Origin: an uncultured Aquimarina sp.
GTDB lineage: Bacteria > Bacteroidota > Bacteroidia > Flavobacteriales > Flavobacteriaceae
Reading direction: 5' to 3'
Assembly (NCBI GenBank): GCA_947493035.1
Contig: CANLOW010000006.1
Coordinates: 122,187 to 186,186, forward strand
Length of the DNA: 64,000 nucleotides
Shown here: positions 45,610-53,266 of the stretch, piece by piece
Layout: every line of letters begins with the position of its first letter
Position numbering within the stretch: the first letter of the stretch is position 1
Translations under genes and position numbers: made by a program
Notes under the pieces: generated by a model
Told to the model about the DNA's origin: nothing
The model's input: the letters and a program-made list of their open reading frames with translations, nothing else
Database searches by the model: none

Positions 45610-45749
45610 GATAATTAATTTTAAATCAAAGCGAAACTACATAGATTTAGTATTTATTTTTGTTTCTTAAATGTTTGATGCATAGTTAAATACATATGAT
45701 ATTGTAATTTTGGGTAAGCAGTGTTTTTTTTATACATATATGGTAATAA

Positions 45750-45791
45750 AAAAGCCTTTTGTTGTACAGAAGGGTAAAACAAAAGGCTTTT
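45750..45791 (-). terminator. Terminator downstream of trpA
   Basis: AAAAGCCTTTTGTT ... AACAAAAGGCTTTT. Confidence 0.75.
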
Positions 45792-45816: not shown

Positions 45817-46578
45817 CTATCGTATATCCTTTATAAATGATGATATACCATCAATTCCATCTTTGGTCAGCATCTTTATAAATGCTGATCCGATGATTGC
45901 TCCCTTAGCAGTTTTAGTAGCTTGATTAAAAGTTTCGTTGTCTTTAATTCCGAATCCAACAATTTGTGGGTTGTTAAGATTATAAGAAGCTATACGTTCA
46001 AAATAGGCCTCTTGTGTATTTCCAAATCCAGATGTAGAACCGGTTACACTAGCAGAACTTACCATGTAGATAAACCCATTAGAAACGCTATCAATAAACT
46101 TTACTCTAGACTCACTTGTCTGTGGAGTAATCAAAAATACATTGCTAAGTCCATATTTTTCAAAGGTAGCTTTATAATGCTCATCATATTCGGCAACAGG
46201 AAGGTCGGGGATAATTAAACCATCGATGCCAACTTCTTGACATTTTGCACAGAATGCTTCTACTCCGTATTGCATCATAGGATTAAAATAACCCATTATG
46301 ATTAAAGGTATCGACACTTCATTTCGAATGCCTTCTAATTGTTCAAACAACAGTTTAGTAGTCATTCCATTTTTTAAAGCGGCTGTTGAACTGTCTTGGA
46401 TTGTAGGTCCATCAGCTAAAGGATCACTAAATGGCAATCCAATTTCGATCATGTCTACACCACTTTTTTCTAGTTCTTTTATGATAGTAACGGTATCATC
46501 TATAGCAGGATATCCCGCAGTAAAATATATAGAAAGAAGTTTTTTGTCCTCTTGTAATTTCTGTTGTATTCTGTTCAT
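45817..46578 (-). CDS. trpA: Tryptophan synthase alpha chain
   Basis: LSIYFTAGYPAIDDTVTIIKELEKSGVDMIEIGLPFSDPLADGPTIQ; start at internal ATG MNRIQQKL. Confidence 0.97.
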   Translation of the reverse strand: MNRIQQKLQEDKKLLSIYFTAGYPAIDDTVTIIKELEKSGVDMIEIGLPFSDPLADGPTIQDSSTAALKNGMTTKLLFEQLEGIRNEVSIPLIIMGYFNPMMQYGVEAFCAKCQEVGIDGLIIPDLPVAEYDEHYKATFEKYGLSNVFLITPQTSESRVKFIDSVSNGFIYMVSSASVTGSTSGFGNTQEAYFERIASYNLNNPQIVGFGIKDNETFNQATKTAKGAIIGSAFIKMLTKDGIDGISSFIKDIR

Positions 46579-46586
46579 TTTTATAT

Positions 46587-46614
46587 AGTACAGAGTACCA
46601 AGTACTGAGTACAA
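46587..46614. repeat. Heptad repeat (AGTACNN)x4, trpB-trpA junction
   Basis: AGTACAG AGTACCA AGTACTG AGTACAA. Confidence 0.85.
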
Positions 46615-46647
46615 AGACAAATCTTTTATAATTTATTTAAGACCTGA

Positions 46648-46675
46648 ATACTTTGTACTGAATACTTTGTACTAA
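46648..46675. repeat. Heptad repeat (NTACTNN)x4, inverted relative to 46587-46614
   Basis: ATACTTT GTACTGA ATACTTT GTACTAA. Confidence 0.85.
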
Positions 46676-46677
46676 AA

Positions 46678-47856
46678 TTATAATTTAAAATAATCGATAT
46701 ATGTATTCAAATCTTTATCTCCACGACCTGAAAGACTAATAACAACAACGTCTTCAGGGTTAAATTTTTTCTCATTAAAGACAGCTAAGGCATGTGAGCT
46801 TTCAATCGCAGGAATGATACCTTCTAATTGACAAAGTTCTAACCCAGCAGTCATAGCATCATCATCAGTTACAGAAAAGAACTCGGCACGTCCTGTTTTT
46901 GCTAAATGAGAATGCATAGGGCCTACACCAGGATAATCCAAACCAGCAGAAATTGAATAAGGTTCTGTGATTTGCCCATCAGGAGATTGCATTAATAGTG
47001 TTTTACAACCATGTATAATGCCTTCTTTTCCTAATTTACTAGTAGCAGCGCTTTCACCACTATTTACACCTTTTCCAGCTGCTTCTACTGCTATAATCCC
47101 AACTTCTGGAGTATTAAGAAAATGATAATAAGTTCCCGCAGCATTACTTCCTCCACCAATACATGCAACTACATAATCAGGATTTTCGCAACCTTCATGT
47201 TCTTTTAATTGCCATTTGATTTCTTCAGAAATGATACTCTGAAAACGAGTTACCATATCTGGGTAAGGATGTGGCCCAATTGCTGAACCAATAATATAAT
47301 GAGTGTCTACAGGATTATTGATCCAATCACGAATTGCTTCATTAGTGGCATCTTTTAAAGTACGACTACCCGATTTCGCAGGGCGGACTTCAGCACCTAG
47401 CATTTTCATACGGGCTACATTAGGAGCTTGACGTGTAATATCAATTTCACCCATGTAAACAATACAATCAATACCAGCTAATGCGCAAACGGTAGCAGTA
47501 GCAACGCCATGTTGCCCCGCACCAGTTTCAGCAATGATTCTATTTTTCCCTAACTTTTTGGCAACTAAAATCTGACCAATAGTATTGTTGATTTTATGCG
47601 CACCAGTATGGTTAAGGTCTTCTCTTTTTAGATAGACTTTGGTGTTGTATTTTTCAGAAAGACGCTTAGCGTAATACAAAGGACTTGGTCTACCCACATA
47701 ATCCTTTAGTAGTTGATTGAATTCTTTCTTGAAATCAGGTTGATCTATGATTTCAAGATATTTTGTGCGTAATTCTTCAACATTAGGATAGAGCATCTCA
47801 GGTATGTATGCGCCTCCAAAATCTCCGTAATATCCTTTTTCGTCTACGTGGTACAT
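46678..47856 (-). CDS. trpB: Tryptophan synthase beta chain
   Basis: [19 protein letters not shown] (PLP-Lys), [32 protein letters not shown]. Confidence 0.98.
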
Positions 47857-47859
47857 ATT

Positions 47860-47941
47860 AATTCGCTTTTAGCGAATTGCTGTCGGCTATCAGCTATCAG
47901 CAATCAGCATTTATCTATATTCTATTCTCTATGTTCTTTTA
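47860..47941. repeat. Palindrome + two heptad arrays, trpF-trpB junction
   Basis: AATTCGCttttaGCGAATT (47860-47878); GCTGTCG GCTATCA GCTATCA GCAATCA (47879-47906); TCTATAT TCTATTC TCTATGT TCTTTTA (47914-47941, overlapping trpF 3' end). Confidence 0.8.
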
Positions 47942-48617
47942 TCATATTAAAAAACTTATTCAGTAATTTAATGTCTTTTAATCCCGGTTCAATTTCAAAT
48001 TTACTGTTTAAATCTAAGGCATGAATCGGTAAATCTGTTTTTAGCAATTGTTCTATTTTGTTTAGCTCTTCCAGTCCAATACCTCCACTCATAATAATGG
48101 GAGTTGTACTAGGGTACTCTTTTAATACAGACCAATCAAACGTATATCCATTTCCGCCTTTTGCTTTTCCTTTGGTGTCAAATAGAAAATAGTCAACGAT
48201 ATTTTCGTAAGGTTTTAATACAGAAAAATCAAAAGTATTTTTAATTCCAAAAACTTTAAAAATTTCAATAGCCTTAGGGTAATCGCTTTTTGGGCTTCGA
48301 CTGCGCTCAGCCCGACATAGTGATTCTAATGCTTGCTTTAAAATTTTGCAATACTGAGCAGATTCGCCACCATGTAGTTGCACTGCCTTAAATCTATATT
48401 TCTCAACTTTCTCTAAAATAAATTCGATTTCAGCATCAACAAACACTCCTGTTTTTTTGATTTTTGAATCAATTTCAGGAATATCTCCATCGAAGTTTCT
48501 TGGAGATTTAGGATAAAAAATAAAACCTAAATAATCTGGGTGTAATGAAGCAACTTCCTGAATGTTTTCAGGCTGTTTCATACCACAGACTTTTATTCTT
48601 AGGTTTTTATTGATCAT
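47922..48617 (-). CDS. trpF: Phosphoribosylanthranilate isomerase
   Basis: LRIKVCGMKQPENIQEVASLHPDYLGFIFYPKSPR; VQLHGGES; FLFDTKGKAKGGNGYTFDW; start at internal ATG (MINKNLRIK), ORF extends to 48668. Confidence 0.95.
   Translation of the reverse strand: MINKNLRIKVCGMKQPENIQEVASLHPDYLGFIFYPKSPRNFDGDIPEIDSKIKKTGVFVDAEIEFILEKVEKYRFKAVQLHGGESAQYCKILKQALESLCRAERSRSPKSDYPKAIEIFKVFGIKNTFDFSVLKPYENIVDYFLFDTKGKAKGGNGYTFDWSVLKEYPSTTPIIMSGGIGLEELNKIEQLLKTDLPIHALDLNSKFEIEPGLKDIKLLNKFFNMIKEHRE
48292..48317. repeat. Palindromic interspersed element inside trpF
   Basis: GGGCTTCGACTGCGCTCAGCCCGACA (minus strand TGTCGGGCTGAGCGCAGTCGAAGCCC), encodes CRAERSRSP insert in TrpF. Confidence 0.65.
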
Positions 48618-48667
48618 TTTATCTTTTTGATGTGATATTGAAACAAGTCCAGGGAGACGCGATCTCA

Positions 48668-49450
48668 TTACTTTAACTCATTAATAAACTCAATAGCACT
48701 TTTAGCTGGATCCTCAGTTTTCATGAAATTTTCCCCAATCAAAAAACCTTGATATCCATAAGGACGTAATTCTTTTATAGCTTCAATAGAGCTAATGCCG
48801 CTTTCGGAAACCTTTACAAAGTCATCAGGAATTAAAGAACTTAGACTTTTACTAGTTTCTAAGCTAACTTCAAATGTCTTTAGATTTCTATTGTTCACCC
48901 CAAGCATATCTAAGCTAGGCATCAATGATTTCTCTAATTCTTCTTGATTATGAACTTCAAGTAAAACATCCAATCCTAGATTTTTAGCAAATTCAGAAAG
49001 TTGTTTAATTTCTTGTCTTGTTAAGCAAGCTGCAATCAATAAACAAACATCTGCCCCATAAGCTTTAGCTTCTAGTAACTGGTATTCATCTATAATAAAC
49101 TCTTTACGAAGTAATGGTAAATTGCAACTAGCTCTAGCAGTCAATAAATCATCTAAAGACCCTCCAAAATATTTTGCGTCAGTCAAAACAGACATTCCAC
49201 AAGCATCAGCAGTTTCATAGCCTTTGGCAACATCCCAAACACTGCTTTTTTGATTGATGACACTTTTAGAAGGAGAACGACGTTTATGTTCTGCAATAAT
49301 TCCAGTATTACTATTTCTAAGATTATTAGCTAAAGAAATAGTGCTTCTATCAAAAAGTACTGAGGCTTCTAGTTGCGAAGTAGGAATTAATTCCTTTCTA
49401 AAATCAACTTCAATACGCTTATCAGCTACTATTTTATCTAGTATATTCAT
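48668..49450 (-). CDS. trpC: Indole-3-glycerol phosphate synthase
   Basis: IIAEHKRRSPSKSVI; LRKEFIIDEYQLLEAKAYGADVCLLIAA; LGVNNRNLKTFEV; VSESGI. Confidence 0.97.
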   Translation of the reverse strand: MNILDKIVADKRIEVDFRKELIPTSQLEASVLFDRSTISLANNLRNSNTGIIAEHKRRSPSKSVINQKSSVWDVAKGYETADACGMSVLTDAKYFGGSLDDLLTARASCNLPLLRKEFIIDEYQLLEAKAYGADVCLLIAACLTRQEIKQLSEFAKNLGLDVLLEVHNQEELEKSLMPSLDMLGVNNRNLKTFEVSLETSKSLSSLIPDDFVKVSESGISSIEAIKELRPYGYQGFLIGENFMKTEDPAKSAIEFINELK

Positions 49451-49453
49451 TTT

Positions 49454-49553
49454 AATTCGCTTTGCGAATTGCTGTCAGCTATCAGCCATCAGCTATCGGC
49501 TTCTTTTTATTATTTGTCAGTCTTAATACTCATTACTTAATACTTTGTACTAA
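49454..49553. repeat. Palindrome + two heptad arrays, trpC-trpD junction
   Basis: AATTCGCtttGCGAATT (49454-49470); GCTGTCA GCTATCA GCCATCA GCTATCG (49471-49498); ATACTCA TTACTTA ATACTTT GTACTAA (49526-49553, contains the trpD stop codon). Confidence 0.85.
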
Positions 49554-50539
49554 GAAATAGCTTGCACTTTTTTCAATACTTCCAATCCTTTACCACCAAG
49601 TAAACTATCCTTAGCCTTTTCAAAACCTTCAATAGGAGTTAATCCTTCAACGGTAGCAATGGCCATTCCTGCATTTGCACAAACGACATTGTTTTGTTGT
49701 TGAGTTCCCTTTCCGCTTAAAATATTCATAAAAATATTTGCAGAGGCTTCGACAGAATCTCCTCCGACAATATCAGATTGAGCATGTGCTACAACCCCAA
49801 AATCTTCGGGAGTTAACATAGCTTCTGAATGTCTGGTAATGGTCTTTGTTTTTCCTGTTAATGAAATTTCGTCATAACCATCTAAAGCATGGAGAATAGT
49901 GAAATTTTTATTCCCGTTTTGGTACAAGTACCCATACATACGTGCTAATTCAAGATTGAATACACCTACCATTTGATTGGTAGGGAATGCAGGATTTACC
50001 ATCGGGCCTAACATATTGAAAAATGTTTTCACAGCTAATTCTCGTCGAATCGGAGCTACATTTTTCATAGCAGGATGAAAAAGAGGAGCATGTAATACGC
50101 AAATTCCTGTTTCATCGATACTTTTTCTTAAGAAATCTTTATCATTACTAAACTTGATACCAAGGTGCTCCATAACATTAGAGCTTCCACATTTAGAAGA
50201 AACCCCGTAGTTACCATGTTTGGTAACTTTAATGCCTGCTCCAGCTGCTACGAAAGATGAAAGCGTCGAAATATTAAAAGTATCTTTTCCGTCTCCACCA
50301 GTTCCACAAAGATCAATAGGGTTATATTCACTAAGATCTACAGCGACACAAAGTTCCAATAAGGCATCTCGAAACCCTTCTAATTCGGAAATCTTAATAC
50401 TTCGCATCATGTATACGGTAAGAAAAGCAGCAATTTGACTTTGATTATATTCCCCATTAGAAATATTTACCAAAATCTGTTTGGCTTCTTCTTTGCCAAG
50501 AACCTCGTGATTGATTAAGCGGTTTAAAATATTTTTCAT
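49550..50539 (-). CDS. trpD: Anthranilate phosphoribosyltransferase
   Basis: DLCGTGGDGKDTFNISTLSSFVAAGAGIKVTKHGNYGVSSKCGSSNVMEHLG. Confidence 0.97.
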   Translation of the reverse strand: MKNILNRLINHEVLGKEEAKQILVNISNGEYNQSQIAAFLTVYMMRSIKISELEGFRDALLELCVAVDLSEYNPIDLCGTGGDGKDTFNISTLSSFVAAGAGIKVTKHGNYGVSSKCGSSNVMEHLGIKFSNDKDFLRKSIDETGICVLHAPLFHPAMKNVAPIRRELAVKTFFNMLGPMVNPAFPTNQMVGVFNLELARMYGYLYQNGNKNFTILHALDGYDEISLTGKTKTITRHSEAMLTPEDFGVVAHAQSDIVGGDSVEASANIFMNILSGKGTQQQNNVVCANAGMAIATVEGLTPIEGFEKAKDSLLGGKGLEVLKKVQAIS

Positions 50540-50553
50540 ATTAATTGTTTATA

Positions 50554-50614
50554 GTTATCGGTTATCTGTTATCAGTACTAATACAACTGATAATAGATAA
50601 CCATAAACTGATAA
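50554..50614. repeat. Inverted heptad arrays forming a stem-loop, trpG-trpD junction
   Basis: GTTATCG GTTATCT GTTATCA (50554-50574) and CTGATAA TAGATAA CCATAAA CTGATAA (50587-50614); TTATCGGTTATCTGTTATCAGT pairs with ACTGATAATAGATAACCATAA. Confidence 0.8.
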
Positions 50615-50642
50615 CTTCTCTAATAGCGAAGCGGTCTAATCT

Positions 50643-50678
50643 CGATAGCTATCGGGACTAATATCTAACCTCTAGTTA
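50643..50678. repeat. CGATAGCTATCG palindrome + heptads CTAATAT CTAACCT CTAGTTA into trpG stop
   Basis: 12-bp perfect palindrome 50643-50654; three CTANNNN heptads 50658-50678. Confidence 0.65.
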
Positions 50679-51241
50679 TTCACCCAATTTTCCAGCATCT
50701 TCATCCCATCTGGTGTTAGTACAGATTCTGGATGAAACTGTACACCACGGACATCATATTCTTTATGACGTACAGCCATTACTTGTCCATTTTCATCAAC
50801 AGCAGTAATTTCTAAAACATCAGGAAAATCATTTTTGGCAACTACCCACGAATGGTAACGACCCACTTCAAAAGATTTGTCAAGACCTTTAAATATTAAA
50901 GTATCATCAACTACAGTTTCTACAGCAGTAGCAACACCATGATATACTTTATCTAGATTTCTTAGTGTTCCGCCATATACTTCACCTATAGCTTGTTGAC
51001 CAAGGCAAACACCGAAAATACTTTTAGAAGCACCATATTTCTCAATAATTGGTTTCAATAAACCAGCTTCATCGGGAATACCAGGGCCTGGTGAAAGTAA
51101 AATCTTGTCAAAAGCATCAACTTCTTCAAGTTCTAGTTGATCATTACGTTTAACGATTACCTCACAACCCAAATCTTCTAAATAGTGAACTAGGTTGTAT
51201 ACAAATGAATCGTAATTATCTATAACTAAAATTTTTTTCAT
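50672..51241 (-). CDS. trpG: Anthranilate synthase component II (glutamine amidotransferase)
   Basis: LVIDNYDSFVYNLVHYLEDLG; SPGPGIPDEAG; FGVCLGQQAIGEVYGG; VQFHPESVLT. Confidence 0.97.
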   Translation of the reverse strand: MKKILVIDNYDSFVYNLVHYLEDLGCEVIVKRNDQLELEEVDAFDKILLSPGPGIPDEAGLLKPIIEKYGASKSIFGVCLGQQAIGEVYGGTLRNLDKVYHGVATAVETVVDDTLIFKGLDKSFEVGRYHSWVVAKNDFPDVLEITAVDENGQVMAVRHKEYDVRGVQFHPESVLTPDGMKMLENWVNN

Positions 51242-51329: not shown

Positions 51330-52727
51330 TTAAATTGATTTCGCTAATTCTAATGCTTTTGTCAGGGCGCCTAATTTATTGTAAACTTCTTGAAGTTCAT
51401 TTTCTTCAACACTATCAGTCACCAAACCAGCACCTGCTTGCCAGTGTAAATGATGATTTTGACTTAAAAAAGTTCGAATCATAATAGCATGATTAAAGTT
51501 TCCATTAAAATCCATAAACCCAATAGCTCCTCCGTAAAAACTTCGATTGATGGTTTCATACTTTTCAATCAATTGCATAGCCATATGTTTCGGAGCTCCA
51601 CTTAAGGTTCCTGCAGGAAATGTGTCGGCGACTACTTGCATAGTCAAACTATCAGCATGTTTGTTTCCGGTAACTTTACTTACCAAGTGGATGACATGAC
51701 TGTAAAATTGAACTTCACGGTAACGCTCGACATTTACATTATTCCCATTACGACTTAAATCGTTTCTAGCTAAATCTACAAGCATCACATGCTCGCTATT
51801 TTCTTTAGGATCTTTGGAAAGCTTTTTAGCTAATTCAGCATCTTTTTCGTCATCACCAGTTCTTTTAAATGTTCCTGCAATAGGGTGAATTTCAGCAATA
51901 CCTTCATCAACTACCAATTGTGCTTCTGGAGAGCTTCCAAAAATTTTAAAATCTCCATAATCAAAATAGAATAAATATGGAGAAGGATTTACACTTCTCA
52001 AAGCACGATAAACATTGAATTCATCCCCTTTAAATTCTTGAGAAAACCTTTTAGAAAGTACTAATTGAAAAACATCACCACGTTGACAATGTTTTTTAGC
52101 AATACTAACATTCTTCTTGAAAGTTTCGTCATCTATATTACTAGTTGTTTCGCCAATAGTATCAAAACTGTAGGTTGCAAAATTCTTTACCTGAATTAAA
52201 GATTCAATTTCATCAACATTATTTTTCCCGTCATAAGAATGAGAGAAAATATAAGCTTCATTATTGAAATGATTAATAGCAATGATATTTTGATATACAG
52301 CATAGTATATATCTGGAATATCTAACTTGTTAGGTTTTGTAGAAATTTCTACGTCTTCAAAATATCGAACGGCATCATAAGAGATATATCCGAACAGCCC
52401 ATTATTAATGAATTTGAAATCTAAATCTTCAGATTTAAATTGTTTCCCAAAATTCTCTATAGTCAACGGAATATTAGTATCCGATTTAATTTCTGATACA
52501 GAATTTGTTCCGTCAGGAAATTGTGTTTCAATTTTCTCATCGGCAATCTTGATACTTGCAATGGGATTGAAACAGATATATGAAAAACTATTGTCTGTCC
52601 CGTGATAATCACTGCTCTCTAATAATAAGCTGTTAGGAAAGCGATCACGAATTTTAAGATAGACACTTACCGGAGTAATGGTGTCAGCAATAATTTTCTT
52701 GTAAAAACTTTTAAGTTGGTAACTCAT
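51330..52727 (-). CDS. trpE: Anthranilate synthase component I
   Basis: FQLVLSKRFSQEFKGDEFNVYRALRSVNPSPYLFYFDYGDFKIFGSSPEAQL; HPIAGTFKRTGDDEKDAELAKKLSKDPKENSEHVMLVDLARND; FPAGTLSGAPK. Confidence 0.97.
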   Translation of the reverse strand: MSYQLKSFYKKIIADTITPVSVYLKIRDRFPNSLLLESSDYHGTDNSFSYICFNPIASIKIADEKIETQFPDGTNSVSEIKSDTNIPLTIENFGKQFKSEDLDFKFINNGLFGYISYDAVRYFEDVEISTKPNKLDIPDIYYAVYQNIIAINHFNNEAYIFSHSYDGKNNVDEIESLIQVKNFATYSFDTIGETTSNIDDETFKKNVSIAKKHCQRGDVFQLVLSKRFSQEFKGDEFNVYRALRSVNPSPYLFYFDYGDFKIFGSSPEAQLVVDEGIAEIHPIAGTFKRTGDDEKDAELAKKLSKDPKENSEHVMLVDLARNDLSRNGNNVNVERYREVQFYSHVIHLVSKVTGNKHADSLTMQVVADTFPAGTLSGAPKHMAMQLIEKYETINRSFYGGAIGFMDFNGNFNHAIMIRTFLSQNHHLHWQAGAGLVTDSVEENELQEVYNKLGALTKALELAKSI

Positions 52728-52777
52728 GGCACAAAATATGTGTTCGAAACTACTGATTTATGATACTTCTAGGATTT

Positions 52778-52811
52778 AAAAAAGGTTTGCCGTGTGCGAC
52801 AAACCTTTTTT
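52778..52811 (-). terminator. trp leader terminator (attenuator hairpin 3:4)
   Basis: Minus strand AAAAAAGGTTTG tcgcacacgg CAAACCTTTTTT; lies in trpE 5' leader between divergent genes. Confidence 0.85.
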
Positions 52812-52841
52812 AAATATTATAATAAGGGCGACACAACACGA

Positions 52842-52889
52842 TTATTTTCGTATTGTACTCCACCAACTGTTATTTCCTAATAAAAACAT
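52842..52889 (-). CDS. trpL: trp operon leader peptide MFLLGNNSWWSTIRK
   Basis: Codon-by-codon on minus strand: ATG TTT TTA TTA GGA AAT AAC AGT TGG TGG AGT ACA ATA CGA AAA TAA; tandem Trp codons upstream of terminator and trpE. Confidence 0.85.
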   Translation of the reverse strand: MFLLGNNSWWSTIRK

Positions 52890-52893
52890 AGGT

Positions 52894-52901
52894 CAAATTT
52901 A
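52894..52901 (-). promoter_or_regulatory. Candidate trp promoter -7 element TAAATTTG
   Basis: TAnnTTTG on minus strand ending 4 nt before the leader-peptide ATG; no convincing -33 TTG. Confidence 0.45.
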
Positions 52902-52948
52902 GATATTTTTTTACTTTTCGGAAAAATTATTTCAAAAATTATATAACA

Positions 52949-53266
52949 ATGAGACAAGATATTGATCAAGACGAGTGGTTAGAGCAATTAGAAGGAGATG
53001 AAAATGCTGTAATTCTTGATGTTAGAACTCCAGGAGAGGTTGAAGAGGGTTATATAGCCAATATGACTGCTATAGATTTCTTGGAAGGACAAACTTTCTT
53101 AGAAGAGATTTCAAAACTAGATAAAAGTAAAAATTACTACATCTATTGTCGTTCAGGAAATAGAAGTGGACAAGCTTGTGATATTATGGAACAACTTGGT
53201 TTTGGAACTACTTATAACCTAGAAGGTGGTTTTATGAACTGGACAGGAGATATAGTGGAAGATTAA
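52949..53266 (+). CDS. Rhodanese-like domain protein
   Basis: AVILDVRTPGEVEEGYIANMTAIDF; YYIYCRSGNRSGQACDIMEQLGF. Confidence 0.92.
   Translation: MRQDIDQDEWLEQLEGDENAVILDVRTPGEVEEGYIANMTAIDFLEGQTFLEEISKLDKSKNYYIYCRSGNRSGQACDIMEQLGFGTTYNLEGGFMNWTGDIVED

Follow-up and report, generated by a model that had tools for sequence, protein, structure and literature searches.

A putative ribosome-stalling Bacteroid-trp (RF01692) attenuator precedes the trp operon of an uncultured Aquimarina sp.

The 64,000-nucleotide stretch of DNA analysed here (the window) carries on its minus strand a complete tryptophan biosynthesis operon in the order trpEGDCFBA. Its first and presumptively regulated gene, trpE (51330..52727), encoding anthranilate synthase component I, was identified by its best NCBIfam match (TIGR00564) and is followed by trpG, trpD, trpC, trpF, trpB and trpA (45817..51241), so that the attenuator proposed in an earlier note on this DNA does lie upstream of trpE. 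The upstream neighbour is a rhodanese gene (52949-53266), divergently oriented with respect to the operon. At the far end, beyond trpA, another terminator-like inverted repeat (AAAAGCCTTTTGTT ... AACAAAAGGCTTTTTT; 45747-45791, minus strand) probably closes the operon. A copy of a dispersed repeat was also observed in frame within trpF (minus strand, 48668-47922), where it occupies 48295-48310, reads CTTCGACTGCGCTCAG on the plus strand and is translated as CRAERSRSPKSDY; the corresponding 16-mer CTTCGACTCCGCTCAG occurs eight times in the genome with at most one mismatch and is absent from a reversed control.

Upstream of trpE, the minus strand encodes a short leader peptide, MFLLGNNSWWSTIRK* (52842..52889), with adjacent TGG TGG codons at 52860..52865, as the earlier note had read; these codons form the base of arm 1 and are the predicted stall site. 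Folding of the leader RNA yielded precisely two hairpins, 1:2 and 3:4, with a total energy of -39.2 kcal/mol compared with -18.75 ± 3.51 kcal/mol in dinucleotide shuffles (z = -5.8; none of 200 shuffles folded as well). Hairpin 1:2, formed by segment 1 (GGUGG ... UACAAUACGA; 52848..52864, minus strand) and segment 2 (UCGUGUUGUGUCGCC; 52827..52841, minus strand), reaches into the Trp codons as had been suggested and holds the UAA stop of the leader in its loop; across the leaders inspected, the stop codon lies within or adjoins segment 2. The 3:4 hairpin consists of segment 3, the 5' arm (52797..52815), a CACA loop (52793..52796) and segment 4, the 3' arm with its U-run (CGGCAAACCUUUUUUAAAU; 52774..52792), all on the minus strand. 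While the terminator proposed earlier was recovered in the fold (-21.6 kcal/mol), its loop is 4 nt rather than 10 nt long and its stem is longer, with 19 bp that extend through UCG/CGG towards the loop and to AUUUAAAAAAGG...CCUUUUUUAAAU on the outer side; trpE begins 46 nt past this stem. A generic consensus terminator scan did not detect the window's trp terminator, apparently because the U-run sits within the stem. The 3:4 hairpin is strong alone, as would be expected if the element at 52774-52815 were a plain terminator that merely stops stray transcription, the Trp-Trp reading frame being a product of chance or a relic. When the 200 nt before trpE were shuffled by mononucleotide, a short reading frame with two adjacent Trp codons turned up in 0.3% of the shuffles.

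A TrpE search retrieved 80 related loci from Aquimarina, Maribacter, Flagellimonas, Arenibacter and others, giving 81 with the window. Orthologous leaders lacking the Trp codons or the terminator, which by the earlier note's own account would have refuted its reading, were not encountered: a leader peptide with two or three consecutive Trp residues was present at 81/81 loci, and the terminator at all 80 loci with gap-free leader sequence. The peptide lies within 400 nt of trpE in 75 of the 81 loci, the window included, and farther upstream in six Flagellimonas-type loci (L072, L082, L085, L096, L105 and L111), because another gene separates leader and trpE there. In L072 the gene between attenuator and trpE (1676-1960) encodes a GIY-YIG domain protein (PF01541). 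Thirty extra leaders were drawn from genomes of the phylum; having been chosen by their RF01692 score, they constitute no independent test. Among 110 leaders, the Trp run was WWW in 105 and WW in five, the window and L033 belonging to the latter. The first Trp codon was codon 9, eight codons after the ATG, in 106 of the 110 (where several in-frame ATGs were available, the one at the 8-codon distance was preferred), a regularity that a plain terminator does not account for. In 42 diverse sequences, the terminator core was paired in 484/484 cells, with 16 further pair types.

Segment 2 has a second set of partners. Pairing between UCGUGU (52836..52841, minus strand) and ACACGG (52790..52795, minus strand; terminator loop and initial 3 nt of arm 4), originally put forward as a possible antiterminator, proved to be the definite and conserved core of one, which 3 + 2 + 4 more pairs extend and which excludes both 1:2 and 3:4. 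In most relatives, GUCGUGA in segment 2, the consensus of the 5' side, pairs with UCACGAC, again contributed by the loop and the beginning of arm 4, while in the 3' part of segment 2 AAGC, GCC or ACCU pairs with GCUU, GGC or AGGU of arm 3 (segment 3). The core was paired in 265/294 cells across 42 diverse leaders, compared with at most 130/239 cells in slid registers, none of which exceeded 55%. Conservation of this pairing, which a plain terminator would not call for, is strong; covariation in the antiterminator is modest, the core varying little. In a partner-shuffle test, the 265 paired cells compared with a mean of 260 and were matched in 6/2000 shuffles, a small excess because the core hardly varies. 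A compensatory change of the last core pair, from A-U to U-A, is shared by the window and L033, and in the distant L121 the pairing is made by a different set, in which GUCGU and AGGU face ACCU and GCGAC. Taken alone, the window's antiterminator duplex was not distinguishable from shuffles (p = 0.21), and exchanging segment 2 among species failed to tell native terminators from foreign ones, since the core is nearly invariant.

The energies that had been proposed as a check were -16.2 kcal/mol for 1:2 and -21.6 kcal/mol for 3:4, each folded separately, and -11.7 kcal/mol for the full antiterminator. With segment 1 masked, as by a ribosome on the Trp codons, the antiterminator was the minimum-energy structure at a transcript length of 101 and gave way to the terminator once more of arm 4 became available. 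With segment 2 masked, as by a ribosome at the stop codon, the terminator alone formed at full length. The antiterminator being weaker than the terminator, any preference for it under starvation would have to be kinetic.

A predicted sigma-A -7 box, TAAATTTG (52894..52901, minus strand; consensus TAnnTTTG), precedes the leader peptide. In Flavobacterium psychrophilum, sigma-A TAnnTTTG boxes occupy -12 to -5 relative to the start site (PMC9723704). The window's box occupies exactly this interval, -12 to -5, relative to the leader AUG; the transcript is therefore predicted to be leaderless, starting at the A of the AUG (52889, minus strand). An exact -7 box was found within 45 nt before the AUG in 107 of 109 distinct leaders, compared with 3.4% of mononucleotide shuffles. 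Box and AUG were 4-9 nt apart in 58 of these 107 and 14-28 nt apart in 49, and the predicted 5'UTR is no longer than 5 nt in about half of the relatives. We lean towards the view that the window and many flavobacterial trp leaders start within 5 nt of the AUG, the attenuator being read by leaderless-initiating ribosomes. Such a start is unusual but not unprecedented: leaderless transcripts make up 5.5% of F. psychrophilum mRNAs with mapped starts (PMC9723704), and transcription of the trp leader of Sinorhizobium meliloti begins at the leader-peptide ATG (PMC7298713). A genome-wide pattern search for box, ATG and TGGTGG returned 75 places, too close to the 56 of a reversed control to be informative. 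The pattern TTTG, ATG and three His codons occurred at 28 places in the genome (e.g. C2:239879-239930), against 10 in the reversed control, and these might include a his leader. The promoter box just before the AUG also speaks against the plain terminator, as does the divergent orientation of the rhodanese gene, owing to which no gene ends here, and we regard that explanation as highly improbable.

Scanning the window against Rfam at gathering level, no family reached its cut-off, T-box included. Tryptophan genes in other phyla are controlled by TRAP- and T-box-type mechanisms, and a leader sensed by a Trp-binding protein or uncharged tRNA, with the peptide incidental, is conceivable here too. 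Such sensing is nevertheless very unlikely, given that no T-box or other family matched at cut-off and that the element is built around translated Trp codons with a stop codon beside segment 2. After the threshold was lowered, Bacteroid-trp (RF01692) appeared at 52798..52912 on the minus strand, the place and strand of the trp leader, aligning to the model end to end (1-131) with 34.6 bits against a gathering cut-off of 49 bits. It was the highest-scoring family there by bits and the best RF01692 match of the whole genome; three further matches of about 24 bits (E > 3) were rejected as second genomic copies. Atu_C9 on the opposite strand, with an E-value of 1.9e-5, lower than that of RF01692, was also rejected, as it scored 27.1 bits against a cut-off of 40 and mainly matches the palindromic terminator. 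Matches to GibS and to microRNA families were far under cut-off.

The window leader is orthologous in position, before trpE, to RF01692 members above the cut-off and can be aligned with them. Of 13 related trpE loci, 11 exceeded the cut-off and two, L033 and L036, both close relatives of the window, did not; the near relatives L036, L007 and L008 likewise fell below it. Because its 34.6 bits are under 49 while near relatives are also below and 11/13 loci above, we term the window leader a divergent RF01692 homologue rather than a formal hit. RF01692 matches were present in 35 of 300 genomes sampled from the phylum, mainly Flavobacteriaceae-type genomes, with 29 in the window's own family (31 genomes sampled). 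In Weinberg et al. 2010 (PMC2864571), Bacteroid-trp appears as a Bacteroidetes RNA, and it has been reported upstream of the trp operon of F. psychrophilum (PMC6414381), a species of another genus. Signs of leader-peptide attenuation have been reported for amino acid operons of that species (PMC9723704). The earlier note had mentioned predictions of trp attenuators in Bacteroidetes and left open whether this lineage was among them; with RF01692 matches here and the report in F. psychrophilum, the answer is that it is, and attenuators of this kind have been known since 2010.

Members of RF01692, like the window, lie upstream of trpE in Flavobacteriaceae and combine a Trp-rich leader peptide with a 1:2 hairpin starting from the Trp codons, followed by AAAAAGGCUUGUC. 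The Rfam model ends at segment 3 and contains neither the terminator nor the antiterminator between segment 2 and the loop, and the window differs from it in having two Trp codons instead of three. That difference, shared with L033, and the low bit score could indicate an attenuator in decay within the window's clade, with a weak or absent response. All pairings are nevertheless intact, the antiterminator core has changed compensatorily in this clade, and two Trp codons suffice in trpL of E. coli; decay is accordingly improbable, if a shade less so than the other alternatives.

In the Yanofsky model of E. coli trpL, tandem Trp codons are combined with alternative 1:2, 2:3 and 3:4 pairings and a stop codon near segment 2. 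The window shares this logic with trpL (Rfam Trp_leader, RF00513), though it has no Rfam-level match to RF00513, its antiterminator core uses the terminator loop, the start of arm 4 and part of arm 3, and its 5'UTR is predicted to be absent. In the last respect it resembles the alphaproteobacterial S. meliloti trpL (rnTrpL), whose transcript starts at the leader-peptide ATG (PMC7298713); there the 5' end is known, whereas that of the window is predicted only.

The anatomy of the element, its conservation, its position before trpE and its mutually exclusive pairings point to a ribosome-stalling trp attenuator belonging to the Bacteroid-trp family (RF01692), a reading to which we assign a probability of roughly 0.93. 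Counting against it are the RF01692 score below cut-off, a run of two Trp codons in place of the three usual among relatives, the lower stability of the antiterminator compared with the terminator, the window duplex that resembles shuffles and the small excess in the partner-shuffle test. The classical stalling logic invoked in the earlier note thereby gains comparative support. As predicted from sequence, start site, stalling, premature termination and Trp response would be related as follows. RNA polymerase would start at or next to the leader AUG with a ribosome close behind. When charged tRNA-Trp is plentiful, the ribosome would reach the UAA in the 1:2 loop and cover segment 2, whereupon the 3:4 terminator would form and transcription would end before trpE. 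If Trp-tRNA runs short, the ribosome would halt on the two UGG codons, covering segment 1, and the freed segment 2 would pair with segment 3, with the loop and with the beginning of segment 4 as soon as these emerge, delaying the terminator and allowing trpEGDCFBA to be transcribed.

The window thus appears to hold a genuine, ordinary attenuator whose full mechanism is legible at the nucleotide level. It lends weight to regarding Bacteroid-trp as a full ribosome-stalling attenuator and supplies the terminator and antiterminator, both absent from the Rfam model, and it indicates that real members, in Aquimarina, score below the RF01692 cut-off. If the near-leaderless start is correct, ribosome loading would be tied to promoter escape in a group without Shine-Dalgarno sequences and, if that start were measured, Bacteroidota would join the groups with leaderless leader-peptide attenuators.
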